This document shows positions 1 through 62,555 of a stretch of 64,000 bases of DNA, piece by piece; position 1 is the stretch's first letter; each line of letters starts with the position of its first letter. The position numbers were made by a program, and so were the translations under genes. A model generated the notes under the pieces. It was not told where the DNA came from and did no database searches. It saw only the letters and a list, made by a program, of their open reading frames with translations. The stretch is from Romboutsia sp. CE17. GTDB taxonomy: Bacteria; Bacillota; Clostridia; Peptostreptococcales; Peptostreptococcaceae. The DNA lies in NCBI RefSeq assembly GCF_012317385.1, contig NZ_CP051144.1, forward strand, positions 62,001 through 126,000, written 5' to 3'.

Positions 1-2
1 TG

Positions 3-62
3 GTCTTTTCTTTTGTTGAGGATAAAGTAAATTATAATATACAGTGTATTCTACATAGATGA
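3..62 (+). pseudogene. 3' end of a large serine recombinase gene (partial)
   Basis: The window opens inside a reading frame that stays open from base 3 to a TGA at 60-62. Its residues begin VFSFVED, which matches the tail of the recombinase-like remnant at 58708-58908 (VVFSFYED). In clostridial large serine recombinases this stretch lies at the extreme C-terminus. Only about 19 residues are visible, so the call rests on that short internal match and is an inference. Whether the upstream gene is intact cannot be seen. Confidence 0.35.
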
Positions 63-118
63 TAAATATATGGTATAATTATACATATTATAACAAAAAC
101 GTAAAAAGGAGTATAAAT

Positions 119-1033
119 ATGCCATATAGTAATAGCTTAGATAGATTGAAAAATGAGTTGAATGAAATTAATGATGGACTATGTCTATTTTTGAAAACGA
201 ATACAAATATATATTCATTTAGAAGTGAATTAACAGAAGAACAGCAGATAGAAATATTAAATCCAATAAGTACATGCTTAGATGGAAAAGAATATGCTCA
301 ATACGATTCATTAGAGAGAAGGGTTAATACAGTATATTACATTATAGATGGTATGGAAGAATTTCATGCATTCAGTAATATTATAGATCTAAATAATCAA
401 ATAATAAATAATGATGTAGCAATTGCTACAATTAGAACTATTGACACTGAGAAGATAAAAATTATTATATTTAAAAAAGGTGATTTTATATTTTTATATA
501 GATACAATTCTAGCAAATTATTTAAACAAGGGTGGAAAGCTAGATTTAATAATGAAGAAGCTGTGGTTGAAAAAGAAAATGATAGTATATTAGTATTATC
601 TAAGGCTATACCTGACATAATATTAGATACTAGAGAAAATTGTTCATTTATACTAAATATAACTCAAGCAGAGTATATTTTAGAAATAGATGAATTATTT
701 AGGGGGACTATGAATAATGTAGAAACAAACTTAAGAAGGTTTAACCTAATGCAAGAAGATACCATTATAGATTTTTTGAATGAAGTATCTGGAAAGAACA
801 CTTACATGAGAAAACTTCATAAAATACAAACAACACAATCATATCAATATTTTTATAATAATATTGAAAGAGTTCCAGAAGTTTTAAGACAATATAACTT
901 AAATGTTAATTTTGATGAGATAAATGGTCAAATTATATTTGATGAAGATACAGATGTAGGAGATGTATTACATTTGTTTGCAGATGATTATGTTAGAAGA
1001 TATATAAGTGAAAGAGATGATGTTATTAAATAG
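119..1033 (+). CDS. KwaB-like (DUF4868) protein, probable Kiwa anti-phage component
   Basis: The product is a soluble protein of 304 residues with no signal peptide or membrane segment. Its middle and C-terminal parts have the layout of the DUF4868/KwaB-like domain: a KKGDFIFLYRY strand at about 111-130, a segment around LFKQGWKAR, an IPDIILD turn, and an acidic C-terminus with DVLHLFADDY. In the Kiwa system KwaB is the cytosolic partner of the membrane protein KwaA. I chose the ATG at 119 because AAGGAG at 106-111 sits 7 bases upstream; a start at 59 has no ribosome site. A -10-like TATAAT lies at about 73. The gene is followed after 19 bases by a small membrane protein, which fits Kiwa although the usual order is kwaA then kwaB. 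The assignment is by recalled family pattern. Confidence 0.55.
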   Translation: MPYSNSLDRLKNELNEINDGLCLFLKTNTNIYSFRSELTEEQQIEILNPISTCLDGKEYAQYDSLERRVNTVYYIIDGMEEFHAFSNIIDLNNQIINNDVAIATIRTIDTEKIKIIIFKKGDFIFLYRYNSSKLFKQGWKARFNNEEAVVEKENDSILVLSKAIPDIILDTRENCSFILNITQAEYILEIDELFRGTMNNVETNLRRFNLMQEDTIIDFLNEVSGKNTYMRKLHKIQTTQSYQYFYNNIERVPEVLRQYNLNVNFDEINGQIIFDEDTDVGDVLHLFADDYVRRYISERDDVIK

Positions 1034-1052
1034 TTAAAAAGGAGGAAGACAT

Positions 1053-1634
1053 ATGCTTCCGAAGTTAGCTCTGTCCTTAACAGGCTTTTTACCTCTATAT
1101 TTAGTAATGATTTTTATGTATTCATATGTATATTTATGCATAGAACAAAGTAAGAATATTAAAAACTATATACTATGTACAATAACGATTGTATTAATAA
1201 TACAATTTATTTGTATTATAATTGTAAATAAGTATATAAAAAGTAAAGAGTCGTTAAGAATTACTGAAAATGAAATTATATTTAGTAATATTAAAGAAGA
1301 TAAAAAGGCTCATATGGATTATATGATGACATACTTGCTTCCTTTATTAACCTTTGACATAGATAAAGTTGATATTTTTTATATAGTATATACAAATATA
1401 TTTATAATTATATTTGTGTTATTAAATGCAAAATCAGAAAATCTAAATATAAATATTTTATTATGGTTTAAAGGATATTCTGTTTATACAGGAATTAACA
1501 ATGAAGGTGAGGAGAAAGTATTATTAATCAAGAAGAAAAGATTTTATAATATTAGAGCTAAACATGATAAATATAGATTTGTATCTTTTGGAGGTAGCAA
1601 TGATATTTATTTATGTAAAAGATATATAGAATAG
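1053..1634 (+). CDS. KwaA-like four-helix membrane protein
   Basis: This 193-residue protein has about four hydrophobic helices, at roughly 3-28, 37-61, 86-100 and 105-125, followed by a basic soluble tail of about 60 residues. The sequence YMMTYLLPLLTFD opens the third segment. The length and topology match KwaA, the membrane sensor of Kiwa. GGAGGA at 1041-1046 sets the start, and the gap to the DUF4868 gene is only 19 bases, so the two are surely co-transcribed. A terminator and a dispersed repeat follow directly. Without its neighbour I would call it only a small integral membrane protein; the KwaA call is an inference from the pair. Confidence 0.45.
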   Translation: MLPKLALSLTGFLPLYLVMIFMYSYVYLCIEQSKNIKNYILCTITIVLIIQFICIIIVNKYIKSKESLRITENEIIFSNIKEDKKAHMDYMMTYLLPLLTFDIDKVDIFYIVYTNIFIIIFVLLNAKSENLNINILLWFKGYSVYTGINNEGEEKVLLIKKKRFYNIRAKHDKYRFVSFGGSNDIYLCKRYIE

Positions 1635-1637
1635 TGT

Positions 1638-1679
1638 ATCGTGGGTATTATTCCTGCGATTCGTCTCCACCATTGAAAT
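1638..1679 (+). repeat. Dispersed ~50-bp repeat, copy 1
   Basis: This is copy 1 of the nine-copy repeat family with the consensus core GTGGATATGATT...CTCCACCATTGAAAT. It lies between the end of the KwaA-like gene and its terminator. It keeps the 5' GTGG and the CTCCACCATTGAAAT block but lacks the 3' CCACG, since the terminator stem begins inside ATTGAAAT. Confidence 0.8.
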
Positions 1680-1724
1680 AAAAAAAGGTATTGTTTTTTA
1701 ATCAATACCTTTTTTTATTTCAAT
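1672..1724 (+). terminator. Intrinsic terminator after the Kiwa-like pair
   Basis: A perfect 22-bp stem (1672-1693 with 1703-1724) surrounds a 9-base loop. A-rich and T-rich runs on both arms would make it work in either direction. It shares its inner GGTATTG/CAATACC stem with the hairpin after citF. Confidence 0.85.
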
Positions 1725-10660: not shown

Positions 10661-10712
10661 AAAATAGTGGATATGATTGCTGTGATTCGTCTCCACCATT
10701 GAAACCAACGAA
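10661..10712 (+). repeat. Dispersed ~50-bp repeat, copy 2
   Basis: This copy carries GTGGATATGATTGCTGTG and CTCCACCATTGAAA, then CCAACG where other copies have TCCACG. It starts 22 bases after the ATPase gene and runs directly into the terminator. Confidence 0.8.
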
Positions 10713-31448: not shown

Positions 31449-31497
31449 AATCGTGGCTATGATTATTGTGATTAGTCTCCACCATTGAAATCCACGA
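31449..31497 (+). repeat. Dispersed ~50-bp repeat, copy 3
   Basis: A well-kept copy: TCGTGG near its 5' end can pair with CCACGA at its 3' end (31491-31497), and CTCCACCATTGAAATCC is intact. It follows the dehydrogenase gene by 31 bases and abuts a terminator. Confidence 0.85.
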
Positions 31498-38162: not shown

Positions 38163-38215
38163 AATCGTGGATATGATTTGCGTGAATCATCTCAACCATT
38201 TAAATCCTAGAAAAG
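38163..38215 (+). repeat. Dispersed ~50-bp repeat, copy 5
   Basis: ATCGTGGATATGATTTGCGTG followed by ATCTCAACCATTTAAATCCTAG. Several changes weaken both possible stems (CTCAACC for CTCCACC, CCTAG for CCACG). Confidence 0.7.
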
Positions 38216-38386: not shown

Positions 38387-38406
38387 ATAAATTTAGTTTT
38401 AAAGAT

Positions 38407-39708
38407 TTATGCTATTTTCTTAGTTTCAATTACATTATTATCTTTATTCATTTTTATAATTGAACTAGTAGAGTATAATAATCCTGCATAAGCTATTACA
38501 GCATAAATTATTGTAGATATCCATGCATTTGTAAATCCAGACTTATCAACTATTAATCCAAATATTGTAGAACCTGAACCAAATCCAACAGCAAAGAATA
38601 TTTGTACAATACCTAATATAGTACCAAATTCTTTGTTACCAAATAAAGCACCCGTCATATAAGAAGGACCTATTATATATGAGAACATAGATATACCTAA
38701 ACAAATTGCAAATACAAATCCAAGTGCATTTATTTGACCTACAAAAATTAAAGATAAACCACAAGTTATAACTAAAAGACCTGCTAGTAAAAGAGATTTT
38801 ATTATACCAAGTTTATCAAATAGAACACCACCGCAAAGGTTTCCGAATATTGAAGCTAACCCGAATAGAGAAGCAACTAAAGCTGATCCTAGAGTGAATA
38901 CCTGATTTTGTTCTAATGTTTGTAAGTATGGTATAAATTGTAATGCCATTCCACCAACATATAATCCCACAAATACAAATGATATTGAGAAAATCCAGAA
39001 GTATTTAATTTTACTAACTTCTGCAAAAGTATATCCCCAATCAGAACTTTGTGATGAAGTCTTTTTAGATTTCTTTGATTTATTCATTTCTAATTCAGAT
39101 TTTGATTTTGGCAATCTCATTATAAATAGTGCTATTGGTAATGATACTATTATAGCTAATAATCCGAATCTTAAATAAGCACCTTTATATCCAATTGCTG
39201 GATTAGATAGCCATTTACCTGCAAATTGTTGAAGAATCATATTACCAAGTCCTCCACCAGAAAAAGCAAGTCCCATTGCAATACCTTTATTTTCTGTAAA
39301 CCAACTATTTATAAGTGTAGGAACACCTATAGCTGATATTATAGCAGATCCTATTTGAACTAATATAGATAGTGCATAATAAGCGAATATATTTCCTCCA
39401 GCTAAAGACATAGCTGCAAATCCAACTCCTACTAAAACTACACCTAATACATATAGTAATTTTATATTTGCTTTAGGATGAGAATATAACTTTCCTATAA
39501 AAGGAGAACATATAGCAGATACTATAGTACCAATTGTGAATATTAGTGAAAATTGAGTATAAGTAAAGCCTTCTCCTGAAGTTACATAATTTGTAAATGC
39601 AGGTTGGATATTAGCTGCTAATGAATATGGTACAGCTTGAATAAGCATACAACCTATAACTATTAACCAACCATAAAAAAATGTACTTTTTTGTTTTGTG
39701 TTTTCCAT
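38407..39708 (-). CDS. MFS transporter, OFA (oxalate/formate antiporter) family
   Basis: The 433-residue protein has twelve membrane helices. Near the N-terminus it has GWLIVIGCMLIQAVPYSLAA and AICSPFIGKL, and the middle segment GIAMGLAFSGGGLGNM is typical of the OxlT-like OFA family. These carriers exchange small carboxylates or sulfonates. A second OFA protein is encoded at 41066, with a YeiH-type exporter between, so all three may serve one anion. The substrate is not visible from sequence. Confidence 0.8.
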   Translation of the reverse strand: MENTKQKSTFFYGWLIVIGCMLIQAVPYSLAANIQPAFTNYVTSGEGFTYTQFSLIFTIGTIVSAICSPFIGKLYSHPKANIKLLYVLGVVLVGVGFAAMSLAGGNIFAYYALSILVQIGSAIISAIGVPTLINSWFTENKGIAMGLAFSGGGLGNMILQQFAGKWLSNPAIGYKGAYLRFGLLAIIVSLPIALFIMRLPKSKSELEMNKSKKSKKTSSQSSDWGYTFAEVSKIKYFWIFSISFVFVGLYVGGMALQFIPYLQTLEQNQVFTLGSALVASLFGLASIFGNLCGGVLFDKLGIIKSLLLAGLLVITCGLSLIFVGQINALGFVFAICLGISMFSYIIGPSYMTGALFGNKEFGTILGIVQIFFAVGFGSGSTIFGLIVDKSGFTNAWISTIIYAVIAYAGLLYSTSSIIKMNKDNNVIETKKIA

Positions 39709-39820
39709 AATGAATACCTTCTTTACTTTTATATTTAGAAAAATTTAATGATCTTATAAAACTCTTTAGTTAATCTGTTGTACCAGTTATTTTTAACTAG
39801 CACAACAAGCTAAATTTTAC

Positions 39821-40849
39821 TTATAATAATATTCCGATTAAAGTTATTGCAGAAACTATTTGTAATAGCCCTATAAATAATCCATATAGAGATACTGATT
39901 TTCCTTGTTTAATTAAATCTTTTACATTAACTCTTAATCCGATAGCGGCTAAAGCGATTATTTCAAATTTATTGCTTATTTCTTTGCAAAGAATTGAAAC
40001 ATCATTGCTTATTATATTTAGAGAGAATAAGGCACAAGTTATAAAGAATCCTATTACATACCATGGAACTTTTATTTTTCCTTTTTCTATATCTTGTACT
40101 TCTTCTTTTATAATTTCTTTATTTGATTTATGTTTTAGATGACCTAATACAAATACAACAACAACTAAAAATATAATACGTACAATTTTAAATATTGTAG
40201 ATAAATCTTTTACATGTTCATTTACCATCGCACCACTAGCGACAACTTGTCCTACAGATTGTAATATACCTCCAATCATGGCAGATGTTTGAGTAATCTC
40301 ATTATTATATAAGAATTGAGATATCATAGGTAATAAGAACATAAGGACTATACCAGTTACATTGACAATAGTTATTGATATTCCTTTTTCCTTATCATCA
40401 GCTCCGATTACAGGTGATGTTGCTGCTATTGCAGAAGATCCACATACTGCATTACCACTTGCCATCATATATCTGAAGTTATCTGAAAAACCTAATTTTT
40501 TTCCGATATATAAAGCTCCTATTATTGTAATTGTCATTTGTAATACTATAAATATTACTCCAGAAAATCCAATTTCAGATATAGTAGATATACTTAATGT
40601 TGCACCTAATAATACTATTGAGTACGACAGCAAGTCAGTTTCTGAAAATTTATATCCCTTTTGGAATATATCGTGATTTAAAAATACATTACCTACAAAC
40701 ATACCTAAGAATATAGCTATAGATGCAGCTCCAAGTTTTGGAACAAATTTTGCAATAAGCATACTTAAATATGCTACTAATACAGAAACTATAAGTCCAG
40801 GTAATATATCTTTTATATTTTTTAGAAAATTATTATTGTTTCTTTTCAT
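39821..40849 (-). CDS. YeiH-family (UPF0324) putative anion exporter
   Basis: The 342-residue membrane protein belongs to the putative sulfate exporter (PSE/YeiH) family. It has ten or so helices and motifs GAASIAIFLGMFVGN, SGNAVCGSSAIAATSPVIGA and the C-terminal FEIIALAAIGLRVNVKDL. It is divergent from the OFA transporter at 41066 and near a LysR gene. In enterobacteria yeiH is paired with the LysR gene yeiE, which responds to sulfite; a similar link is possible here. Confidence 0.82.
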   Translation of the reverse strand: MKRNNNNFLKNIKDILPGLIVSVLVAYLSMLIAKFVPKLGAASIAIFLGMFVGNVFLNHDIFQKGYKFSETDLLSYSIVLLGATLSISTISEIGFSGVIFIVLQMTITIIGALYIGKKLGFSDNFRYMMASGNAVCGSSAIAATSPVIGADDKEKGISITIVNVTGIVLMFLLPMISQFLYNNEITQTSAMIGGILQSVGQVVASGAMVNEHVKDLSTIFKIVRIIFLVVVVFVLGHLKHKSNKEIIKEEVQDIEKGKIKVPWYVIGFFITCALFSLNIISNDVSILCKEISNKFEIIALAAIGLRVNVKDLIKQGKSVSLYGLFIGLLQIVSAITLIGILL

Positions 40850-40946
40850 TATGACGCTCCTTTAATGTGATATATATTTTATTTTAAATTCATATTTACA
40901 ATTTGTTAAATATGTTTTTTTTATAATATATATAACCATTTACCTA

Positions 40947-40982
40947 TATATCGCTTATAAGTATTTAATTATATGTGATATA
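40947..40982. promoter_or_regulatory. Candidate LysR operator between divergent transporter genes
   Basis: TATATCGCTTATA (40947-40959) and TATATGTGATATA (40970-40982) are complementary at 11 of 13 positions with a 10-base spacer. The site lies between the YeiH-type and OFA genes, where an activator could control both. Confidence 0.35.
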
Positions 40983-41065
40983 AAATTTACGTATTTAACA
41001 AAATGAATAAAAATATTTATAATAAAATTGCAAAATTTATTTTAGAAAAGGAACGTGAGAGTATT

Positions 41066-42328
41066 ATGAAAGATGAAGCATTACAAAGTAATAGCAATAA
41101 TAAGAAAAAATATTTAATAGTATTTATATGTATGTTCATGCAAGCCATACCATTTGGAGTTGCACAAAATATTCAACCATTATTCATACCATATGTAATT
41201 AATGATTTTGGATTTTCACTAGCAGCTTTCTCTTTAATTTTTACATTTGGGGCTATGGCCTCTGCAGCATTTTCTCCATTTTTAGGGAAATTATTTGGTA
41301 AGATAAATATAAAAATATTATTTATAATAGGTACAGTATTATCATCATTAGGATTTTTAGGATTTGGTTTTGCTAAGACTTTACCTCAATTCTATATATT
41401 ATCAGCAGTATCTCAAGTAGGATGTGTTTTATTCTCTGGACTAGGAGTTCCATATGTGATAAACAACTGGTTCCCTAAAAAAGGTAGAGGTAAAGCTTTA
41501 GGTATAGCATTCTCTGGTGGTTCTATAGGAAATGTATTTTTACAACAAATTACATCACAAATGTTAGCATCAAATGGTGCTAGTTATAGTTACATAGTAT
41601 TTGGATTAATATCATTATTATGTAGTTTACCAGCAATTTTATTATTCATAAGAATGCCTAAAGATAATGAAGTAGAAGTAGCTGAAGAAAATATAAATGA
41701 ATTAAATGAAGTGGATAAAGGATTTGAAGGTTTAGGAGCAAAAGCAACAACTAAGAATAAATATTTTTGGATATTTTCAATAGGATATGCAATAATAGCA
41801 ATTGCTATATCAGCATTAAGTACTCAATATGCAACATATTTTACAGGAGAGCTTGGAATGAGTGCAACACTAGTTGGGACATTAGGTTCAGTATTTGCAC
41901 TATTCTGCCTAATAGGAAATGTAACTGGAGGAGCTTTATTTGATAAAATAGGTACGTTAAAAACAATGTCTATATCATTAGTACTTTCAATTATAGCTAT
42001 AATAGGATTAATGATGTCAAGTAAATTTCATAGTTTAGCATTTTTATTCTCTGTAGCATATGGTTTAAATGTTTACTCATATATGTCAGCACCAGCATTT
42101 ATGGCTACAGATGTATTTGGTAAAAAAGAATCTAGTGTAATATTAGGTATTATAAGTCTTCTATTTGCATTAGGATTTGCATTCGGTTCAACATTATTTG
42201 GTATGATAGTAGATAATTTTGGATTTAATGCAGGATGGATAGTAATGTTAGTATGTGTACTTTTAGGATATGCTTTATTACTTACATCAATAAAAAAAGT
42301 CAAAGATCAAAATGAAAAATTAGCATAA
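41066..42328 (+). CDS. MFS transporter, OFA family, second copy
   Basis: The 420-residue protein has twelve membrane helices and the same family features as the one at 38407: MFMQAIPFGVAQNIQPLF, SAAFSPFLGKLFG and GKALGIAFSGGSIGN. I start at ATG 41066; the frame extends upstream to 41003 but that part is charged and AT-rich and does not match the family. A terminator follows. Confidence 0.8.
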   Translation: MKDEALQSNSNNKKKYLIVFICMFMQAIPFGVAQNIQPLFIPYVINDFGFSLAAFSLIFTFGAMASAAFSPFLGKLFGKINIKILFIIGTVLSSLGFLGFGFAKTLPQFYILSAVSQVGCVLFSGLGVPYVINNWFPKKGRGKALGIAFSGGSIGNVFLQQITSQMLASNGASYSYIVFGLISLLCSLPAILLFIRMPKDNEVEVAEENINELNEVDKGFEGLGAKATTKNKYFWIFSIGYAIIAIAISALSTQYATYFTGELGMSATLVGTLGSVFALFCLIGNVTGGALFDKIGTLKTMSISLVLSIIAIIGLMMSSKFHSLAFLFSVAYGLNVYSYMSAPAFMATDVFGKKESSVILGIISLLFALGFAFGSTLFGMIVDNFGFNAGWIVMLVCVLLGYALLLTSIKKVKDQNEKLA

Positions 42329-42407
42329 AATATATATTACTTTAAGAAATAAAAGTATTGAAACAATAAAAGAAGGTAATATAATATATAAAAATATTGA
42401 TATTAAG

Positions 42408-42440
42408 AAAGAGGTGAGGTTTTATTTCACCTCTTTTTGT
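42408..42440 (+). terminator. Terminator after the second OFA gene
   Basis: AAAGAGGTGA pairs with TCACCTCTTT with a 9-base loop, then TT. Confidence 0.8.
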
Positions 42441-42481
42441 TGAATATAGTAATATATATATATATGAGGAGTGATATACTT

Positions 42482-43375
42482 ATGAATATTAGAAAATTAG
42501 AGATTTTTTATAGAACAGCTAAGTGTTTAAATATGAGTCAAGTAGCAAAGGATATGTATATTAGCCAACCATCAATAAGTCAATGTATATCTGAAATTGA
42601 GTCAGAAATTGATACAAAATTGTTTGATAGAATAGGTAAGAAGCTGTATTTGACACATGAAGGTCAAATTTTTTATGAATATACAAGAAGAATATTAAAT
42701 ATTTATGAAGAAGGAATAAATGTAGTACGTTCATCTAAGTCTAATAAAGGAAAATTAGTTATTGGTGCAAGTACAACTATAGGTACATATATAATGCCTT
42801 ATATAATACATAAATTTAATCAAAAAGAAAAAGATATTGAAATATCTATGATTATAGATAACAAGCAGAATATAGAAGAACTTATACTGAATAATAAAGT
42901 AGACATTGGATTTATAGAAGGTACGGTAAATTCAAAAGAGATAATATTAAAAGATATATGGATGGATGAGCTTGTATTTATAAGCTCAGTAGACCATGAA
43001 TGGAATGGAAAAAAATACTTAGATATAGAGGATTTAAAAAATAATAAATTTATTATAAGAGAAGATGGTAGCGGAACAAGAGAACGATTTGAAGATTTTT
43101 TAGAAAATAAAGATATTAAATTTGATTCATATATAGAATTAAGTAATTTAGAGGCTATTTTAAATTATGTTAAATTAAATATAGGAGTAAGTTGTTTACC
43201 TTATATGTCTGTTTTATCTGAAGAAAATTCAAAATCAATAAATGTATATAGGTTGAAAGATCATAATATTAATAGATCTTTATATAGTGCTATACACAAA
43301 GATAAGTATATTTCTAAACCTATAGAATGCTTTATGGAATTTTGTGAAAAAACGGATATTTTAAATAATAAATGA
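42482..43375 (+). CDS. LysR-family regulator (CysL/YeiE-like)
   Basis: The 297-residue protein has the LysR HTH at 1-60 (LNMSQVAKDMYISQPSISQC) and a substrate-binding domain with FIIREDGSGTRERFE, a stretch seen in CysL/YeiE-type members. GAGGAG before ATG 42482 fixes the start; a longer frame from 42437 would begin inside the terminator. It probably controls the adjacent OFA and YeiH-type transporters. The effector may be a sulfur oxyanion, which is an inference from the yeiE-yeiH pairing. Confidence 0.85.
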   Translation: MNIRKLEIFYRTAKCLNMSQVAKDMYISQPSISQCISEIESEIDTKLFDRIGKKLYLTHEGQIFYEYTRRILNIYEEGINVVRSSKSNKGKLVIGASTTIGTYIMPYIIHKFNQKEKDIEISMIIDNKQNIEELILNNKVDIGFIEGTVNSKEIILKDIWMDELVFISSVDHEWNGKKYLDIEDLKNNKFIIREDGSGTRERFEDFLENKDIKFDSYIELSNLEAILNYVKLNIGVSCLPYMSVLSEENSKSINVYRLKDHNINRSLYSAIHKDKYISKPIECFMEFCEKTDILNNK

Positions 43376-43452
43376 TTATACATGAAAAAGTAGAATTGAT
43401 ATGTTAATTATTGCATTACAATTTATTATAAAATGATGAGTTTGTATTATAA

Positions 43453-44896: not shown

Positions 44897-47800
44897 ATGA
44901 ATCTTAAAAAAGGTATATATGAGCAAATTATTTCAGATAAAGTAAATGAAGAACTAGAAAAACGAAAAGATGAAATAGATATAAAAACTGAAGCAATAGA
45001 AAGAGAAGAAGCTAAAGAAGTACTATCAAAACATTTAGGTGATGTAGCTAAAAAAAGCCTAGAATTTATAAAAAATTTAGATATAGAAAAGCAAATCGAT
45101 ATATGCAATAACATAATAAGTTACTTATCAAAAGAAGTAGGAGACGAAGATATAAAAATAAATAACATACATAAAAAAGGTGAAATCCTATTATCAATAG
45201 ATGAAAAGAAGAATAACTCTAACCTAAAAAATAAAGTAAGACCATTAACACCAATATCACAAAGCTTTTTATTTACAAATAGTAATAATGAGCCAGACCT
45301 AGTAAGTGAGTTAAAAAGAGAGATACTAACTAGCGATAAAATAGATATCATAGTATCTTTCATTAGATGGACAGGTATAAGATTAATAAAAGATGAATTA
45401 ATAGAACATACAAAAACAAAGAAGTTAAGAATTATAACAACATCATATTTAGGTGCCAGCGAATTTAAAGCAATTAAATTTTTATCAACATTACCTAATA
45501 CAGAAATAAAAATATCATATGATACAGAGAGAACAAGACTTCATGCTAAAAGTTATATGTTCTACAGAGATACAGGTTTCACTACTGCATATATAGGTTC
45601 ATCTAACATATCAAAAGATGCAATGACAACAGGACTTGAATGGAATATGAAGGTAAGTGAAAAAGACTCAAAAAATATTATAGATAAATTCAAAGCTACT
45701 TTTGAAAGTTATTTTAATGATGATGAATTTAAATTATTCACAGAGAATGATGAGGATATGTTAAAGTCAGAGCTAGCAAAAGCAAGAAAGAAAGACATTA
45801 AAGTAAATATAGATGATATTGCTAATCTTGATGTAAGACCATATCATTATCAACAAGAAATATTAGAAACACTTCAAGCTGAAAGAGAAATTTTAAACCA
45901 TAATAAAAATTTAGTAGTAGCAGCAACAGGAGTAGGTAAAACTGTAATATCAGCATTTGATTATAAAAACTTTGTTAGAGAAAATAAAGGAAAAGTAAAT
46001 AGACTTTTGTTTATCGCTCACAGAGAAGATATTTTGGTGCAAAGTATGAAAACTTTTAGAACTATTCTTAGAGATAGAAACTTTGGAGGGCTTTATACAG
46101 GAAATTATACTCCAGATAATATTGATCATGTATTTATGACTATACAAACATTCAATTCTAAGAAGTTTGATGAAATAACAACTAGTGATTTTTATGATTT
46201 TATTATCGTTGATGAATTTCACCATGCCAGTGCAAAATCTTATCAAAAGTTATTAATGCATTATCATCCTAAAATATTATTAGGACTAACGGCTACACCT
46301 GAAAGAATGGATGGGAAAGATGTACTAGAGTATTTTGATGGTAGAATAAGTACAGAGATGAGGCTAGGAGAGGCAATAGATCGAAAATTATTAACTCCAT
46401 TCCAATATTTCTGTGTAAGTGATGAACTAGATTTAAGTAAACTTAAATGGTCAAGGGGTGGATATGATACTAACGAACTTACTAATATACTTACTTTAGA
46501 TAAAGTAAATGCAAATAGAAGGGCAGACTTAGTAATTAGAAGTTTACATGACTATATATCAGATTTAGATGAAGTAATCGGATTAGGTTTCTGTGTGAGC
46601 ATAGAACATGCAGAGTTTATGGCAAATTATTTTAACGAAAAAAATATACCATCAGTTGCAATAAGTTCTAAATGTAGTGTTGAGGAAAGAGAAAGTGCTA
46701 GATTAGGTCTTGTTAATGGTATATATAAGTTTGCTTTTGTAGTAGACCTTTACAATGAAGGAGTAGATATTCCAGAAATTAATACTATATTATTCTTAAG
46801 ACCTACTGATAGTATTACAGTATTTTTACAACAATTAGGTAGAGGACTTAGATTAAGTGAAAATAAAGAATGTTTAACTGTATTGGATTACGTTGGACAA
46901 GCTCATAAGAATTATAATTTTTACGAGAAATTTAGTACTATTTCCAAATCAAAAGGTAAAGTATTAGAAAGTGAGATCAAAAGTGGATTTATAACTTTAC
47001 CTAAAGGTTGCCACATACATATGGAGAAGCAAGCTAAAGAATATATTTTAAAAAATATTAACTCATTTATATACAATAAAAATACTATTACTAATAAAAT
47101 AAAGTCATTTAGTATAGAGAGTGATAAAGAGTTAAACTTACTTAACTTTATAGAATTTTACAATATAACTTTAAAAGATATATACAAGACTAAAAATACA
47201 TTTGCTAGACTTTGTGTGAATGCAAATATAAAAGAAGATTTTGTTTGTGATGACGAAAAAATGTTAAGTACAGCAATGATAAGATTAAACAATGTAGATT
47301 CACCAAGACTTCTTAGATTTTGGAAAAACACATTAGAGAATTTTAAGGAACATAATACTATATCTAAATTTAATAACGAGGAAGAAAAGATGATATTGAT
47401 GTTGCATTATACTTTATTCACTAAAGCACCTATTGATTTAGGTATAAATAGTATACATCAATTTTTAGAAAGAATATATTCAAATAAGGAAATATATGAA
47501 GAGATCCTTGATGTAATAAAGTATAATCTGACTCATATTAAAATAAAGCCATTAAAAGATAGGCTAGAGTATGATAGTCTAATGGAGGCCCATTGTACTT
47601 ATACTAAAGAGCAAATACTTTGTGCTTTAGGAAAAAATACTATAGAAAAGCAATATCCTTTAAGAGAAGGAGTATTGTATATAGATGAATTAAAGACAGA
47701 TGTGTTTTTAATTACCCTTAATAAGGTAGAAAAACATTTTTCACCATCAACTATGTATGAAGATTATGCAATCAATGATGAACTATTTAATTGGCAAAGT

Positions 47801-48043
47801 CAAAGTAGAACTAGTGATGAGTCTCCGACTGGAGTTAGATATATTAACCATAGAAATACCAATAATAAAATACTTTTATTTGTTAGAGAAAACAGTAAAG
47901 AGGAAGGCATCACTAGTCCATATATTTATTTAGGACAGGCTGATATTGTTAGTCATAGAGGTAGTAAACCTATAACTATAGTGTGGAAACTAAAAAATAA
48001 GTTACCTGCAAGAATTGCTGTTAAAGCAGAGAAGGCTCTATAA
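44897..48043 (+). CDS. PLD-nuclease / superfamily II helicase / DUF3427 protein
   Basis: This 1048-residue protein has three parts. Residues about 95-290 form a phospholipase D-like domain with the HAKSYMFYR motif and GSSNISKDAM. Residues about 310-700 form a helicase with Walker A ATGVGKT, box IVDEFHHA, motif LTATPERMDG and the arginine-finger region QLGRGLRL. The C-terminal part from about 700 is the DUF3427-type domain. It probably acts on DNA; relatives are widespread and often sit near accessory or defence genes. AGGAGGAG precedes the ATG. It is a single-gene unit. Confidence 0.85.
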   Translation: MNLKKGIYEQIISDKVNEELEKRKDEIDIKTEAIEREEAKEVLSKHLGDVAKKSLEFIKNLDIEKQIDICNNIISYLSKEVGDEDIKINNIHKKGEILLSIDEKKNNSNLKNKVRPLTPISQSFLFTNSNNEPDLVSELKREILTSDKIDIIVSFIRWTGIRLIKDELIEHTKTKKLRIITTSYLGASEFKAIKFLSTLPNTEIKISYDTERTRLHAKSYMFYRDTGFTTAYIGSSNISKDAMTTGLEWNMKVSEKDSKNIIDKFKATFESYFNDDEFKLFTENDEDMLKSELAKARKKDIKVNIDDIANLDVRPYHYQQEILETLQAEREILNHNKNLVVAATGVGKTVISAFDYKNFVRENKGKVNRLLFIAHREDILVQSMKTFRTILRDRNFGGLYTGNYTPDNIDHVFMTIQTFNSKKFDEITTSDFYDFIIVDEFHHASAKSYQKLLMHYHPKILLGLTATPERMDGKDVLEYFDGRISTEMRLGEAIDRKLLTPFQYFCVSDELDLSKLKWSRGGYDTNELTNILTLDKVNANRRADLVIRSLHDYISDLDEVIGLGFCVSIEHAEFMANYFNEKNIPSVAISSKCSVEERESARLGLVNGIYKFAFVVDLYNEGVDIPEINTILFLRPTDSITVFLQQLGRGLRLSENKECLTVLDYVGQAHKNYNFYEKFSTISKSKGKVLESEIKSGFITLPKGCHIHMEKQAKEYILKNINSFIYNKNTITNKIKSFSIESDKELNLLNFIEFYNITLKDIYKTKNTFARLCVNANIKEDFVCDDEKMLSTAMIRLNNVDSPRLLRFWKNTLENFKEHNTISKFNNEEEKMILMLHYTLFTKAPIDLGINSIHQFLERIYSNKEIYEEILDVIKYNLTHIKIKPLKDRLEYDSLMEAHCTYTKEQILCALGKNTIEKQYPLREGVLYIDELKTDVFLITLNKVEKHFSPSTMYEDYAINDELFNWQSQSRTSDESPTGVRYINHRNTNNKILLFVRENSKEEGITSPYIYLGQADIVSHRGSKPITIVWKLKNKLPARIAVKAEKAL

Positions 48044-52028: not shown

Positions 52029-52325
52029 ATAATGGTACAATTAATATTTTAGATAAAGATATTTATAAAAATTTAATGGTGGATATGATTGCAGTGATTC
52101 ATATCCACCATTGAAATCCACAAAACACATTGATAAATTATCCATGTGATTTTTTTATAAAAACAATATAATCTATAATACATATATACTAAAAATTTTA
52201 TAGTAGATATTCAAAATAACAATAGAGTAGATAATTCGGTAAGATTTGTTGTTAATACATTGGGTTGTAAACTTAATTATCTTCAGTTAAAATAAGTTTA
52301 TTAATTTAACAGGGGGATACAAATT
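52029..52325. other. Intergenic region with repeat copy 7
   Basis: About 300 bases between the amidinotransferase gene and the LysR pseudogene. Apart from the repeat and its terminator I see only AT-rich DNA and AGGGGGA before the pseudogene ATG. Confidence 0.5.
52075..52155 (+). repeat. Dispersed ~50-bp repeat, copy 7, with a perfect 14-bp hairpin
   Basis: This copy forms AATGGTGGATATGA-10-TCATATCCACCATT without mismatch (52075-52088 with 52099-52112). The second partner ATCCAC (52116-52122) is also present, so the 5' arm could pair in two ways. A weak terminator-like stem and T7 follow to 52155. Confidence 0.85.
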
Positions 52326-54573: not shown

Positions 54574-54672
54574 AAAATACTGGATATGATAGCTACGATT
54601 CATCTCCACCATTCAAACCCTCGAAAATGAGGATAAAGAACTACTAAGTTTATGGCTTAGTAGATTTTTTAT
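54574..54672 (+). repeat. Dispersed ~50-bp repeat, copy 8, with terminator
   Basis: CTGGATATGATAGCTACG and CTCCACCATTCAAACCCTCG, then a terminator CTACTAAG-7-CTTAGTAG with T6 at 54641-54670. That terminator is nearly identical to the one at copy 5. Confidence 0.75.
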
Positions 54673-57252: not shown

Positions 57253-57933
57253 ATGAATAAAGAAATATTGGATGAGATGAATAAACGAGGGATTAGTAGG
57301 TTATGTCATTTTACAAAGGCTAAGAATATTCCTCATATACTAAATAATTTTAATGGTGTTTTATCTACTGATGATATACCAGAATATTATAGAGAGGTAA
57401 ATGATGAACATAGATTTGATGGGAAAAAAAATTACATATGTTGCTCTATAGAATATCCGAATGTATATTATCTAGATAGAATTAAGGATAATGATAAGTT
57501 ATTTAATGAATGGGTTATAATTTGTATAGATCCTAAAATAGTATTAGAAGGTAATATTTTATTTTCAAAAGTTAATGCAGCTACAGAAAGAGGAAAATAT
57601 ATAATGTCAGGTATAGATGGATTAAAGTCTATTTATAGTGAAGAAATAATTACGAATAAAAGAATTATAAGAAGAAGCAGTAATTTACCTATTTCTTGTG
57701 CTACTGATATTCAAGCAGAAGCTATGATTTTAGGAAGAATTGACAAAAAATATATAAAAGAGTTAATTTTCCCTAATGAGCAACAGGCTAGAATGGAATA
57801 TACTAGGATGAAGTTATTAGGTATAGGAAAAGAACTAAAATTAAAGATATGCCCAGATTTATTTAAAAGAGAATTAAGAAACTATTTAAACAAAGGGCGT
57901 ATACCAAAGGAGATAGAATACAATGGCGATTAG
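57253..57933 (+). CDS. DarT1-like DNA ADP-ribosyltransferase toxin (DUF4433)
   Basis: The 226-residue protein has the DarT fold marks: the NAD-binding H-F-T triad at 19-21 in LCHFTKAKNIPHIL, the YICCSIEYPN strand near 61-70, the SRS-like ERGKYIMSG region, and the catalytic glutamate E156 in IQAEAMIL. DarT enzymes put ADP-ribose on DNA bases and block replication, in phage defence or growth control. The start is 4 bases after the helicase stop, and its end overlaps the next gene by 11 bases. The next gene is a NADAR-type reversal enzyme, which identifies the DarT1 class. Confidence 0.78.
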   Translation: MNKEILDEMNKRGISRLCHFTKAKNIPHILNNFNGVLSTDDIPEYYREVNDEHRFDGKKNYICCSIEYPNVYYLDRIKDNDKLFNEWVIICIDPKIVLEGNILFSKVNAATERGKYIMSGIDGLKSIYSEEIITNKRIIRRSSNLPISCATDIQAEAMILGRIDKKYIKELIFPNEQQARMEYTRMKLLGIGKELKLKICPDLFKRELRNYLNKGRIPKEIEYNGD

Positions 57934-58624
57934 ACCAGTTTTTCAAGTTGGCAAAGATAAAGATACAAGCGTAAATGTTATAAACTATGAATTCAAATGG
58001 TATTCTGGATTTTCAAAATCTCAAAAGCAAAAAAGCATTTATGATTTGCATAAGTCTTATTTAGATAACAATAATAAGAATAGTAAAATTTTAGAAATAT
58101 CTACCAGTTCACCTGATGAATTAGGTATTAAGTTGAGTGCATTTAATTTAATGATAAAAAATCAAAATAATGAGGAAGTTTGTAGTGTAGAGAGTTTATT
58201 TCAATCTTGCAAAAAATTTGAAAATGGTGGACCATATAAAGATATTATTACAAAAAATTCGAGAGATGCTAAAAAAGATTTGAGACTTAAGAATTCAGGT
58301 GATTTGGTATGTTTTTATTACAAAGACCAAGAATGGCCATTAGAACCAAGAACGCTTTTTTATGATTGGATATATATGAATACTTTAAATCAGTACAAGG
58401 ATTTAAAAGAAGAAATAATTAAATATGATGCATTTACTGATATAGAGTTTAACCCTAAAAAATCCATAAATTGTCAGGCAAGATCAGCTGCACTATACGT
58501 TTGGCTTTTTAGAAATAATATGTTAGATAAGATATTGGGCTCTGACAAGGAGTATAAGAAGTTTTTTAAAGGCTATTCTAATATAAATGACACTCAATTA
58601 AAAATCGATTTATTTATTGACTAA
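57923..58624 (+). CDS. NADAR-type antitoxin associated with DarT1
   Basis: The 233-residue protein resembles the NADAR family found beside DarT1, whose members remove ADP-ribose from guanine bases. The conserved SVESLFQSCKKF (88-99, with E90, Q94 and K97) is the NADAR signature position, and the N-terminal FKWYSGFSKSQKQKSI is typical of the DarT1-associated subgroup. It overlaps the toxin gene by 11 bases, so the two are coupled. It is expected to neutralise the toxin. The assignment rests on pattern recall plus context. Confidence 0.7.
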   Translation: MAIRPVFQVGKDKDTSVNVINYEFKWYSGFSKSQKQKSIYDLHKSYLDNNNKNSKILEISTSSPDELGIKLSAFNLMIKNQNNEEVCSVESLFQSCKKFENGGPYKDIITKNSRDAKKDLRLKNSGDLVCFYYKDQEWPLEPRTLFYDWIYMNTLNQYKDLKEEIIKYDAFTDIEFNPKKSINCQARSAALYVWLFRNNMLDKILGSDKEYKKFFKGYSNINDTQLKIDLFID

Positions 58625-58707
58625 TTACAAGATTTGGATATCAAAATAAGTTAGTTATAAATAGAATTTATAAAGAATAAGACCTTGTAACAGAAGATTA
58701 AATTAGA

Positions 58708-58908
58708 ATGATGTTTGGGAAGTTTAAAGAATTTGTTTTAATAAGAAATTTACCAGAGTGTAAGAAGTTTATAGGAGATTATGTGAAAGAAGTGATAGTG
58801 TATAAAGACCACGTTGAGGCTATATTCAACGTGGTCTTTTCTTTTTATGAAGATAATATAATTCTCGATGCAATGATAACTGCTATAAGAAATGATATTA
58901 GATTATAA
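58708..58908 (+). pseudogene. C-terminal remnant of a large serine recombinase
   Basis: The 66 codons include ECKKFIGDYVKEVIVYKDHV and AIFNVVFSFYEDN, the end of clostridial serine recombinases (VIVYKDHVEV type). All catalytic parts are missing. It sits between the DarT1-NADAR operon and the next defence operon and suggests that one of them arrived on, or was cut by, a recombinase-bearing element. The bases for KDHVEAIFNVVF form a perfect hairpin. Confidence 0.6.
58804..58846 (+). terminator. Intrinsic terminator inside the recombinase tail
   Basis: AAAGACCACGTTG (58804-58816) and its complement (58827-58839) form a 13-bp stem with a 10-base loop, followed by TCTTTTT. The hairpin is part of the reading frame. 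Confidence 0.75.
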
Positions 58909-59035: not shown

Positions 59036-59746
59036 GTGATTATTATAAATTTGAATAGGAATGGAGATTTTAGAAGTATAATAGCTCAAGCTATAAAGGA
59101 TGCTTATACTGAAGATATAAGAGAATTAAAATATAATTATGAGTTAAAAACTTTTAGTAGTAGACATGCTTTGGCTAAAGATCTTTTGAATACATATGTT
59201 TTTAAGAGGTTAGAAAAAAATAGATTTATAATTGAAAAGTTTAATAGAGGAGCACATGAATTTATTTCTATATATGACAAGAAAGAAAAAAGCCTATATT
59301 CTTTAATGAAAATGAAAACATTTAAAGGCCTAGAAAAGTCAAAGAAAAAGAAAAATGTACATTATTTAGAATCCTTAGGACTACTTAATAATAATATAAT
59401 ACCAAAGGAATCTCAAATTGAATTTTTCGAGGATGAATATAGACAAAGTTTAATGAAAGAGTTATTAGTTAAAATTGTTAGTAAAGAAGTAGTTGATGAA
59501 GTTGAAGTACATAAATTAATAACTTTTGATATAAAAAATAATGAGTTAACTTCGATATCAGTATTCAAATTAAATTCACAGCTAGATATAATAGATGAGG
59601 AGAGTTGGAATGAATATATCGGAGTTAGCTATGATGATATAGGTACTAGAGAGTTAAATATGGATACGATTAAAGAGGACTATGCTTTAGAAGAAGAAAT
59701 CCCATTGGGTATAAAAGGTACGGATATACAAATAAAAGTTAAATAA
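59036..59746 (+). CDS. Uncharacterised protein, first gene of the nuclease operon (possibly DUF5986)
   Basis: The product of up to 236 residues has no membrane helix. It begins LNRNGDFRSIIAQAIKDAY, has a basic middle (KTFKGLEKSKKKK) and an acidic C-terminus ending in a short strand region. I have a faint recollection of DUF5986 for such proteins next to XRE-ImmA genes, but cannot confirm it. The start is unsure: GTG 59036 is nearly on the AGGG site; TTG 59051 is another choice. It is followed after a small hairpin by the XRE-ImmA gene. Confidence 0.55.
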   Translation: MIIINLNRNGDFRSIIAQAIKDAYTEDIRELKYNYELKTFSSRHALAKDLLNTYVFKRLEKNRFIIEKFNRGAHEFISIYDKKEKSLYSLMKMKTFKGLEKSKKKKNVHYLESLGLLNNNIIPKESQIEFFEDEYRQSLMKELLVKIVSKEVVDEVEVHKLITFDIKNNELTSISVFKLNSQLDIIDEESWNEYIGVSYDDIGTRELNMDTIKEDYALEEEIPLGIKGTDIQIKVK

Positions 59747-59791: not shown

Positions 59792-60943
59792 ATGTTAAAA
59801 AATAGAAGTTTTAATGGAGTTAGGCTAAAATCCGCAAGAATATATAGAGGCAAAACAATTTCTCAATTAGCAGATGAAACGGGTGTTAGTAAGCAGGCCA
59901 TATCACAATTTGAGAATAATAAAACAACTCCTGGATTTGAAACGTTAATAAAACTCACTAATAGTCTAGAGTTTCCAAAGGACTATTTTTATGAAGAAGA
60001 TGATGTTTCTATAATAGTAGGAAATACTTATTTTAGAGCTCAGGCTTCTATAACAAAAAAAGAAGAGGCATCTTATGCAGAAAAGTTATCAATATTTGCA
60101 AAGCTATATACTTTTATAGAAGATTATATTAATTTTCCTAAGTTAAATATACTACAATTGGATCATAGTAATGATATTGATGATGTAGAGTTTATATCAG
60201 AAAAACTTAGAGCATACTGGGGACTAGATGATAAACCTATTGTTAATCTTGTAAATGTAATGGAGAGAAATGGATTTAAAATAACTTCTTTTGATACTGA
60301 AAATTCTAAGGTAGATGCTTTTACTCAAATGCAAAAAGTAAATAATGAAGTAAAATATTTTATTGCTTTGGGTAATGATAAAAATTCTGCTGTAAGAAGA
60401 CATTTTGACTTGGCTCATGAGCTAGGTCATATAATGCTACATGAATGGGTAGAAGATACCAGTACTATATCAAGAGAAGAGTACAAAAAAATAGAAAATC
60501 AAGCAAATGAGTTTGCAGGATCATTTTTACTACCTAGAAGAGGATTTTTAAATGATTTGATATATCCTAACAATTTAGACTTTTATGTAGAATTAAAACA
60601 AAAGTGGAAAGTTTCAATAGGAGCTATGCTTATTAGAGCATATAAGCTAAATGCTATAACATATAATCAATATCAATATATGATAAAACAAGCATCAAAA
60701 AGAGGATGGAGAACATGTGAACCTTTAGATGATAAGATACCATTACCAAAGCCAGTATTAGTTAAAAAAGCATTAGAAATGCTTATTGAAAATAATATTC
60801 TTACAAAGTCACAAGTAGTAGATAAGATACATAATAGTGGTATAAGTATAAGTAGAGAAGAGATAGAATTCCTTTTAGGCTTAGAAAGAGGAATGCTAAA
60901 AGTAAAAGATGAGTCGAATAATATTATAAGTATAAAACTTTAG
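59792..60943 (+). CDS. XRE HTH and ImmA/IrrE-type metalloprotease fusion
   Basis: The 383-residue protein has a Cro/CI HTH at about 8-62 (TISQLADETGVSKQAISQFE) and a zinc peptidase of the ImmA/IrrE type with HELGH at 209-213 and a downstream glutamate in NQANEFAGSFLLPR. Such proteins sense damage or phage and cleave a repressor, often themselves or a partner. Here it would control the operon or activate it. AGGAGG precedes the ATG. The gene downstream begins 18 bases later. Confidence 0.88.
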   Translation: MLKNRSFNGVRLKSARIYRGKTISQLADETGVSKQAISQFENNKTTPGFETLIKLTNSLEFPKDYFYEEDDVSIIVGNTYFRAQASITKKEEASYAEKLSIFAKLYTFIEDYINFPKLNILQLDHSNDIDDVEFISEKLRAYWGLDDKPIVNLVNVMERNGFKITSFDTENSKVDAFTQMQKVNNEVKYFIALGNDKNSAVRRHFDLAHELGHIMLHEWVEDTSTISREEYKKIENQANEFAGSFLLPRRGFLNDLIYPNNLDFYVELKQKWKVSIGAMLIRAYKLNAITYNQYQYMIKQASKRGWRTCEPLDDKIPLPKPVLVKKALEMLIENNILTKSQVVDKIHNSGISISREEIEFLLGLERGMLKVKDESNNIISIKL

Positions 60944-60961: not shown

Positions 60962-61723
60962 ATGACGCAGTATGAATATGTAAGGAATATTTTAGAAAAG
61001 TACAAGCATTCCGATATAAAATCAACTAATGAAATTTATAATATTCAAAGATTAGAAAAAATGATAACTAATTGGGCAGGGAATAACTTAAATAGTATAA
61101 AGTTATCGGGCTCAAGAGCTAAAGGAACTGCATTAAAAGGGGGAGCAGATTTAGATTTATTTATATCTATAAATCAAAATACATTACTAACATTAAAAGA
61201 AATGTATACATCATTATATGACTATATGATAACTAATGGTATGAAATGTAGAAAACAAAATGTATCAATTGGGTTAGAAATAGATGGAATTAATATAGAT
61301 TTAGTTCCAGGTAAAAAAAGATTAGGGAATACAAATTATCATAGTCTATATTTAAATAAAAAAGATTCTTGGACACAAACTAATATAGATGAACATATAA
61401 CTTTAGTAAAGAATTCAGGTAGAATAAATGAAATAATTCTATTAAAAGTTTGGAGAATGTTGCATGAAATAGAATTTCCATCTATATATTTAGAATTAAT
61501 TACAATAAAAGCTTTAAAGTATAAAGATAAAAATAATTTAGCAGAAAACTTTTTATACCTACTAAAGTATTTATCAGATAATATTTTAGATATAACAATA
61601 GTAGATCCATCAAATACAAATAATGTGATTTCAGATGACTTGTATATATATGAGAAAAAAATAATTGCAGATAAGGCTAAAGAAAGTTTATGTAAAAAAA
61701 CATGGGGAGAAATTATATGGTAG
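60962..61723 (+). CDS. CD-NTase/OAS-like nucleotidyltransferase
   Basis: The 253-residue protein has a polymerase-beta fold with G-S at 50-51 (LSGSRAKGT), catalytic aspartates D63 and D65 in GADLDLF and a third D113 in NIDLVPGK. All three acids are present, so it should be active. The pattern is nearest to OAS-like / archaeal CCA-adding and CD-NTase enzymes, which can make nucleotide signals. With a nuclease encoded next it may form a CBASS-like pair. GGGGGA is before the ATG; the end overlaps the next gene by 7 bases. Confidence 0.78.
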   Translation: MTQYEYVRNILEKYKHSDIKSTNEIYNIQRLEKMITNWAGNNLNSIKLSGSRAKGTALKGGADLDLFISINQNTLLTLKEMYTSLYDYMITNGMKCRKQNVSIGLEIDGINIDLVPGKKRLGNTNYHSLYLNKKDSWTQTNIDEHITLVKNSGRINEIILLKVWRMLHEIEFPSIYLELITIKALKYKDKNNLAENFLYLLKYLSDNILDITIVDPSNTNNVISDDLYIYEKKIIADKAKESLCKKTWGEIIW

Positions 61724-62451
61724 ATAAAAGTAAAAAGATGGATATAAAAATATTATTTAATGGCCTTCAAGAGCAAATGAAATGTAAACTTACAACTAAT
61801 AGAAGTATAATTCAACATCCAGGAACTAAAGGGGATGCGAGTGAGCTTAATTGGATAGAAATATTACGTAAATATTTGCCCAAAAGATATAGTGTAGATA
61901 AAGCGTTTATTGTGGATTGTTATAATAATATAAGTGATCAAATAGATATTGTGATTTATGATAGACAATATTCTCCATTTGTATTTAATCAAGATGATGT
62001 TAAGTATATACCGGCTGAAAGTATATATGCTATATTTGAAGTAAAGCAGGAATTAAATAAAGATAATATATTGTATGCATCAGATAAAGCTAAAAGTGTA
62101 AGGAGATTACATAGAACATCAGCTAAAATATATCATGCAGGAGGATGTCACCCACCTAAAGCTCATAGTAAAATATTAGCTGGAATACTCACTTTATCAT
62201 GTTCATGGTCAGAAGGATTGGGTTCTACATTTAAGAAGAATATGAAAGAGTTATGTTCAAATGGAGAATTAAATTTAGGATGTATTTTAGAGTCAGGATC
62301 ATTTAAATATAATGATGATGTATTAGAAATAAAAGATGGAGATAATGCATTAATGTCATTCTTTTTAAATTTATTAATAGAGTTACAAAAGCTAGGAACA
62401 ATACCTGCTATGGATATAAATTATTATTTGGATGCATTAGATAGAGAATAA
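61717..62451 (+). CDS. DUF6602-like PD-(D/E)xK nuclease, probable effector
   Basis: The 244-residue protein has the order GTKGDASELNWIEILRKYLP (36-55), QIDIVIYD (76-82, with D77) and SIYAIFEVKQ (102-111, with E108 and K110). This is the arrangement of a PD-(D/E)xK nuclease core in the DUF6602 group. I start at 61717, 6 bases after GGGGAGA; the frame reaches back to 61702. It overlaps the nucleotidyltransferase gene and is probably the effector it controls. Repeat copy 9 and a terminator follow. Confidence 0.75.
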   Translation: MVDKSKKMDIKILFNGLQEQMKCKLTTNRSIIQHPGTKGDASELNWIEILRKYLPKRYSVDKAFIVDCYNNISDQIDIVIYDRQYSPFVFNQDDVKYIPAESIYAIFEVKQELNKDNILYASDKAKSVRRLHRTSAKIYHAGGCHPPKAHSKILAGILTLSCSWSEGLGSTFKKNMKELCSNGELNLGCILESGSFKYNDDVLEIKDGDNALMSFFLNLLIELQKLGTIPAMDINYYLDALDRE

Positions 62452-62506: not shown

Positions 62507-62555
62507 AAATTGTGGATTTGATTTTTGCGATTCATCTCCACCATTGAAATTCACG
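62507..62555 (+). repeat. Dispersed ~50-bp repeat, copy 9
   Basis: TTGTGGATTTGATTTTTGCG and CTCCACCATTGAAATTCACG are well kept, and the outer GTGGAT/ATTCAC pairing is possible. It follows the last gene of the defence operon by 55 bases. Confidence 0.8.

Follow-up and report, generated by a model that had tools for sequence, protein, structure and literature searches.

A Kiwa anti-phage system in kwaB-kwaA order as likely cargo of a serine-recombinase island at the 3' end of ssrA

The kwaB-kwaA pair and its gene order

The window, that is, the whole stretch of 64,000 nucleotides analysed here (G000:C1:62001-126000, where G000 labels its own genome), opens with the 3' end of a serine recombinase gene (positions 1-62, forward strand). 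On the same strand follow two intact open reading frames, kwaB (119-1033, 304 amino acids) and kwaA (1053-1634, 193 amino acids), the latter encoding a membrane protein. The two genes are separated by 19 bases and each is preceded by an AAGGAG-type ribosome-binding site. An ATG at position 59 would give kwaB an alternative start and a longer product of 324 amino acids. A promoter-like TCTACA-18-TATAAT with TG before the second hexamer (50-79, forward strand) lies upstream of kwaB and is a promoter candidate as a suggestion only, promoter-like sites near the gene being in no excess over shuffled sequences (29 compared with 28.2).

Profile searches bore out the preliminary description, which had taken the first protein as DUF4868/KwaB-like and the second as KwaA-like. 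KwaB matches Pfam PF16162 (E 4.2e-11, 43.6 bits, cut-off 26.3) and the PADLOC KwaB model over nearly its full length (E 4.8e-13, residues 4-300), with no match in NCBIfam. KwaA is matched by ten PADLOC KwaA models (best E 5.5e-14) and scores 35.7 bits against the NCBIfam KwaA model, below the cut-off of 100. Solved Kiwa structures are present in the PDB (9mrg, 9mrr, 9mrx, 9mtn, 9nyu, 9o0i), and family profiles built from both gene-order types find KwaB in 9mrx (E 5.1e-12) and KwaA in 9mrg (E 3.9e-16); the window KwaA as a single phmmer query matched no PDB chain. By PADLOC and the PDB profile, a KwaA-like small membrane protein is encoded beside kwaB.

AlphaFold models built from five-row alignments have mean pLDDT values of 51.6 (KwaB) and 52.4 (KwaA), a low confidence that is too weak for judging interfaces. 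Kiwa chains nevertheless rank first for both models in Foldseek, ranks 1-5 being all KwaB chains for KwaB (best 9mrx_D, E 5.5e-6) and all KwaA chains for KwaA (best 9mrx_A, E 2.5e-3), although these poor models superpose weakly on Kiwa chains (TM 0.53 and about 0.3). The four helices that the preliminary description gave to KwaA appear in its model, as four main helices with a strand-containing tail, but a hydropathy scan gives three membrane segments.

Kiwa (kwaA-kwaB) has reportedly been studied by Doron (2018) and Zhang (2025). The window proteins resemble it by profile and in the Foldseek rankings, and differ in their B-A order (kwaB before kwaA), their low identity to eight distant aligned loci (15-26%) and their NCBIfam KwaA score. 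The closest KwaBA relative is L055 (71% identity for KwaB), the single relative found in the genome_contigs scan; its contig is labelled Lutibacter sp. B2 (Bacteroidota) and may be mislabelled or contaminating, given the other relatives. Close relatives of the window KwaB were absent from the plasmids, phages and viral contigs searched, and those of KwaA from the viral contigs searched. By NG86 both genes have lower dN (0.20-0.24) than dS (0.95-1.16); comparing window kwaB and kwaA each with L055 and L043 gives four dN/dS values of ~0.19-0.22. Both genes are therefore under purifying selection. Judged by these profiles and reading frames, the pair is an intact, bona fide copy of the known anti-phage system Kiwa, and an ordinary one.

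If the window pair acts as the family does in excerpts from PMC12904381, KwaA tetramers in the membrane would sense phage attachment and bring KwaB dimers, and KwaB would bind incoming DNA and stop its replication as well as late transcription. For Kiwa, DNA degradation is given instead in a table of PMC12322248.

The preliminary description had the B-A order right, but its view of this order as an unusual, divergent branch does not hold in a comparison of relatives. Among 35 loci classified, 21 are B-A, 10 are A-B and 4 are without a KwaA found, which makes B-A the commoner order in this sample (21 of the 31 loci with both genes), and its rarity was rejected on this count. Within the 21, L091 and L092 are identical, L047 has a broken kwaB and L123 has its KwaB by Pfam match only. 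Excluded from the 35 were L050 and L051, which score under the Pfam threshold and whose reading frames carry other genes, and L042, L046, L090, L128 and L130, which repeat other loci. KwaB matches occur in 12 of 358 genomes in the class around G580, 11 of the 12 being B-A, and in 11 of 351 genomes in the window's own class, with 3 B-A, 4 A-B and 4 without KwaA. At least for the Bacillota-type genomes sampled, this corrects the impression of kwaA-kwaB as the usual order.

Two named phages, Mammaliicoccus phage phi6223 and Clostridioides phage CD1801, carry B-A pairs. The A-B order is found in plasmid loci of Emticicia and Halobacterium. The Kiwa system of Streptococcus thermophilus 90730, for which an excerpt of PMC11514479 lists kwaB and kwaA with consecutive locus tags, is apparently also B-A and gave 4-5 log protection against the lactococcal phages c2 and sk1. 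It shares the listed order with the window pair and is active against phages (PMC11514479 and PMC12322248, both in excerpt), but it sits at a CRISPR3-linked defence island whereas the window pair sits at ssrA. The B-A pairs of L041/L054, L043/L053, L110 and L111 adjoin genes of phages (terminase, amidase and endolysin, some of them identified by eye), which suggests that phages spread this arrangement.

Trees were built from 28 KwaB and 28 KwaA sequences; gene order requires two changes on each, compared with shuffled means of 8.4 and 8.5, and none of 500 shuffles was as low. Both trees place the window, L043 and L055 together on a long branch, with 100/100 support. This trio could be taken to mean that the B-A order defines a divergent Kiwa branch which is itself the novelty, an idea to which we give almost no credence: several supported clades hold B-A pairs (the trio, seven loci from the G580-class sample, and a seven-member group with phage and viral contigs), and the S. 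thermophilus pair, given as kwaB, kwaA, has been tested (PMC11514479, in excerpt). The trees carry long-branch warnings and do not settle a single origin of B-A. What is distinctive in the window copy is its membership of the long-branch trio and its place in an ssrA-integrated element; as Kiwa it is one more copy, and the element matters more.

The island at ssrA and its recombinase

The tmRNA gene (ssrA) lies at G000:C1:43000-43351. A 19-bp sequence made up of its end and flank (G000:C1:43340-43358) is repeated exactly at G000:63661-63679 (window 1661-1679), starting 27 bases past kwaA, and forms with an element-side arm the attR at 1638-1679 (forward strand). Just after it, a GGTATTG/CAATACC inverted repeat followed by a T-run (1681-1717, forward strand) is terminator-like by eye and has too few G-C pairs for the terminator scan. 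The two 19-bp copies, one at ssrA itself and the other a direct repeat of the ssrA 3' end, delimit 20.3 kb in which a site-specific recombinase, a serine recombinase of 517 amino acids, is encoded and the Kiwa pair is cargo at the right-hand end. A chance repeat of the ssrA end was rejected, as six 22-mers of this kind were found in the window when none was expected.

We infer that the large serine recombinase inserted this island at the ssrA 3' end and mediates its excision and integration, and very likely the Kiwa pair, in kwaB-kwaA order, is cargo at the right end of such an island. The recombinase would join the att arm of the element to the ssrA end, so the ssrA end would be duplicated at every insertion and successive islands would accumulate in tandem.

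The preliminary description had read bases 3-62 as the end of a serine recombinase. This end is in frame, and the complete gene is present to the left (G000:C1:60509-62062, forward strand), mostly outside the window. Its product has the Pfam domains Resolvase, Recombinase and Zn_ribbon_recom. The nearest NCBIfam models are CcrB (167.9 bits, E 3.5e-49), XisF, CcrC (92.8 bits) and CcrA (83.5 bits), all below cut-off (900 for CcrB and CcrC, 700 for CcrA), so that the CcrA/B/C recombinase above family cut-off that marks an SCC element is not found. The SCC elements of staphylococci have CcrA/B/C large serine recombinases, att arrays and exchangeable cargo, and target rlmH. The window island is like them in recombinase family, att arrays and exchangeable cargo, and unlike them in its target, ssrA, and in having no CcrA-type partner among its reading frames.

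Islands specific for ssrA are described in Dehalococcoides (PMC3146451, in excerpt), with a CcrB-like recombinase, DsiB, and tandem islands within 100 kb of ssrA. They have in common with the window region the repeats of the ssrA 3' end, a CcrB-related serine recombinase, cargo apart from the integration module, and islands lacking a recombinase. The same excerpt places their recombinase module at attL, in the reverse strand, together with a small second recombinase, and gives reductive dehalogenase genes as their cargo, whereas the window island has one recombinase at the attR side, on the ssrA strand, followed by defence genes. The dsiB-dsiA type of module, with its second small recombinase and reverse-strand position at attL, was not encountered here: no second recombinase was seen in the island's list of reading frames, and the complete one is encoded on the same strand as ssrA, at the island's right end. 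Excision of another ssrA-borne element, the prophage CP4-57, can alter tmRNA (PMC10107115, in excerpt).

The island also encodes an undecaprenyl-diphosphate phosphatase (NCBIfam), a two-component pair and an ABC transporter (L008:632-6108; G000:C1:44632-50108), a set which we take to be of the kind linked with bacitracin-type resistance. Transposase genes are present as well, and a non-systematic look identified no relaxase or other transfer gene. Among more distant elements with recombinases of 40-45% identity (L104-L108), none has defence cargo like that described below, and in four of the five the recombinase reading frame lies directly against the tmRNA gene or overlaps it. In these four, L105-L108, the recombinase is on the opposite strand to the tmRNA gene, beside smpB (SmpB by eye).

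Cargo exchange and the chain of att-like sites

Two relatives, G814 and G816, were chosen for holding the recombinase, and G815, G817, G819 and G786 as further members of the family. G814 belongs to another genus of the same family. Its recombinase is 100% identical, and a 7.7-kb block (7697 columns) ending at attR is 99.5% identical, with 2 mismatches over the first 1660 bases of the window. That a second genus has the Kiwa-bearing end too, together with the ssrA-repeat ends, supports delivery by a mobile element as the preliminary description had suggested.

The pair might be a decaying passenger, carried by the island but no longer working. The transposase genes on the island and the recombinase remnants in the chain would fit this. 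We consider it very unlikely, given intact reading frames with ribosome-binding sites, dN/dS values (NG86) near 0.2 in the comparisons with L055 and L043, and a G814 copy that differs at just 2 positions in 1660 bases.

In G816 the island is matched at 99.7% over 18702 columns (18.7 kb), from the att core to G000:62041, and the match ends inside the recombinase gene, after an internal hairpin. Beyond it, a TrlF-family ATPase of 972 amino acids (NCBIfam TrlF 499.5, cut-off 350; PADLOC Ppl E 5.7e-21) stands in place of kwaBA and is followed by an att site. The alignment thus shows a cargo replaced at the 3' end of the recombinase gene while the 18.7 kb leading up to it are 99.7% identical, one ssrA island backbone bearing two different defence cargoes from the same junction. 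Such exchange may proceed when the recombinase gene of one island recombines, in its conserved end and ahead of the tail, with that of a neighbouring or incoming one.

The position directly downstream of the recombinase was surveyed at nine loci (G000, G814, L056, G816, G790, G931, G783, G830 and G905) of a clade whose recombinases have at least about 50% identity, or are closer but partial or broken. Known defence families occupy it in seven of the nine, a plain count for these loci and no measure of enrichment. They are Kiwa in G000 and G814, LmuA/LmuB (Lamassu) in L056, where the recombinase is split in two frames, TrlF/Ppl in G816, ThsB-TIR with a caspase in G790, GmrSD in G931, and HamA/HamB (Hachiman) in G783, where the recombinase is broken. 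G830 encodes in this position a protein of 452 amino acids (L068:13986-15344) that PADLOC, Pfam, NCBIfam and PHROGs all leave unmatched, which makes its gene a candidate for a new defence function. G905 has no evident cargo and an interrupted recombinase. An att site closes the slot in five of the nine (G000, G814, L056, G816 and G790).

The slot resembles those of P2 and P4, where a small variable locus by conserved element genes holds interchangeable anti-phage systems (PMC9122126, in excerpt), but the element is of another type and the slot lies between recombinase and attR. With a shared junction and several systems on sister recombinases, the recombinase-attR interval is therefore a simple place to seek unnamed systems. 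HamA- and HamB-like genes open the next segment in L056 (10532-13548), past the att site closing the Lamassu slot, so that defence segments stack there too. Two more recombinase remnants were found, one in G814 (226333-226898) and one in the window (58687-58860) with defence genes and an att site.

Six sites in the window match the att 22-mer with 3 mismatches or fewer; all six are on the forward strand, and none is expected. Beyond attR these are at 10684-10705 (1 mismatch), 31470-31491 (1), 52096-52117 (2), 54597-54618 (3) and 62529-62550 (1), the last closing a defence segment; a weaker forward-strand site with 4 mismatches lies at 38184-38205 (G000:C1:100184). With up to 6 mismatches, the 137.5 kb from the tmRNA gene onward hold nine att-like sites. 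In five of the six relatives att-like matches lie close to the tmRNA gene or downstream of it (in G815 more than half of this region is N), and G786 has none.

The window remnant (58687-58860, forward strand) encodes 58 C-terminal amino acids with 74% identity and has the same hairpin as the complete gene. Between it and the att-like site at 62529 lie, all on the forward strand, genes for RmrT (59036-59746), RmrA (59792-60943), a CD-NTase-like protein (60962-61723) and a NucC-like protein (61702-62451). Just before the remnant, DarT is followed by a DarT1-associated NADAR antitoxin (Pfam; 57253-58624). A protein of 1048 amino acids encoded at 44897-48043, within the att segment 38184-52096, matches the PADLOC type IV restriction enzymes (E 6e-221).

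The same segment includes a transporter/LysR piece (38389-43450; G000:C1:100389-105450) that is 97-98% identical to G816 and 91-93% to G819. In those two genomes it ends no more than 18 bp from att sites that occupy different places in the array. Its reading frames showed no recombinase, and mobilisation in trans is therefore possible. The chain of att-like sites could instead be a resident chromosomal region with dispersed repeats, in which there are no stacked islands and only the first 20 kb are mobile. In keeping with this, the intervening segments hold ordinary metabolic genes, mostly without a recombinase, and the six arrays share few blocks (at least 88% identity over at least 300 bp) with other genomes. 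We find it rather doubtful, however, as the six window sites share strand, element-side arm and ssrA core, the transporter/LysR piece stands at att sites of differing array position in G816 and G819 and also occurs in G000, and the site at 62529 comes after a remnant of a recombinase gene accompanied by defence genes.

The hairpin in the recombinase reading frame

A 15-bp terminator-like hairpin lies inside the recombinase reading frame at G000:C1:61973-62008 (forward strand), the last 8 bases of its right arm and its T-run forming window positions 1-16, and the cargo-change junction is just beyond it. A hairpin with T-run is present in 11 of 13 readable recombinase 3' ends, remnants included, and absent in the distant G910 and G925; in the 11 bearing it, the next in-frame stop is 51-108 nt away. 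The terminator scan also finds it, with 3 such sites against 0.2 expected in 3.2 kb, and among 253 genes of five arrays a score of 15.5 was passed by only three, all this recombinase.

That the hairpin is a by-product of the protein sequence was rejected, since none of 400 synonymous-codon shuffles reached the observed score in each of seven close recombinases. Over ten aligned hairpins, 98% of the pair cells are paired and both sides change in 4 of 15 pairs in a compensatory manner; the covariation score was reached by 1 of 500 shuffles, a control that does not remove relatedness and for which the G931 register was set by hand. The feature is not a general trait of such recombinases. Only G883a of 11 outgroup recombinases beat all shuffles, and among 64 distinct viral-contig relatives of 35-51% identity (from 79 loci, with L152 omitted as a repeat of L056, after removal of 10 running off the contig and 5 duplicates) two score 12 or more, L174 (20.1, 0 of 200 shuffles) and L181 (12.5, 1 of 200).

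We lean towards a plain terminator that would insulate the recombinase from the cargo, the frame running through because the cargo brings the downstream sequence, with no link to trans-translation. The hairpin is found in the clade with downstream cargo and not in recombinases directly abutting ssrA, and in L104 (G883a) a terminator-like hairpin stands in a long reading-frame tail that looks non-coding. Two features fit this account less well, namely the stop codon 51-108 nt past the hairpin in all 11 of the 3' ends that have one and the tails beyond the hairpin, which are recognisably similar by eye in G000, G816, L056 and the G814 remnant.

A terminator-like hairpin with T-run inside the reading frame before the stop is also the mark of tmRNA-controlled non-stop genes of the arfA/brfA type. 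In brfA of Bacillus subtilis, a Rho-independent terminator lies in the reading frame upstream of the stop and the non-stop mRNA is under tmRNA control, as shown by experiment (PMC6881298, in excerpt). The in-frame terminator is alike in the recombinase, which is another type of gene and whose case is known at the sequence level only. By this analogy the recombinase might be made from a non-stop mRNA and kept low by trans-translation, and thereby by the very RNA whose gene is its integration target, a proposal we hold to be improbable. Were it true, overwhelmed or lost tmRNA (stress, infection, damaged ssrA) would let the recombinase rise and the defence island move; a terminator working as in brfA would tie defence-island movement to the state of trans-translation. 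A limited search of open-licence literature brought to notice no description of tmRNA control of a recombinase or of a defence slot in ssrA islands. Strong terminator-like hairpins in the end of the reading frame are also seen in two recombinases outside the clade, L104:314-2131 (G883a) and L174.
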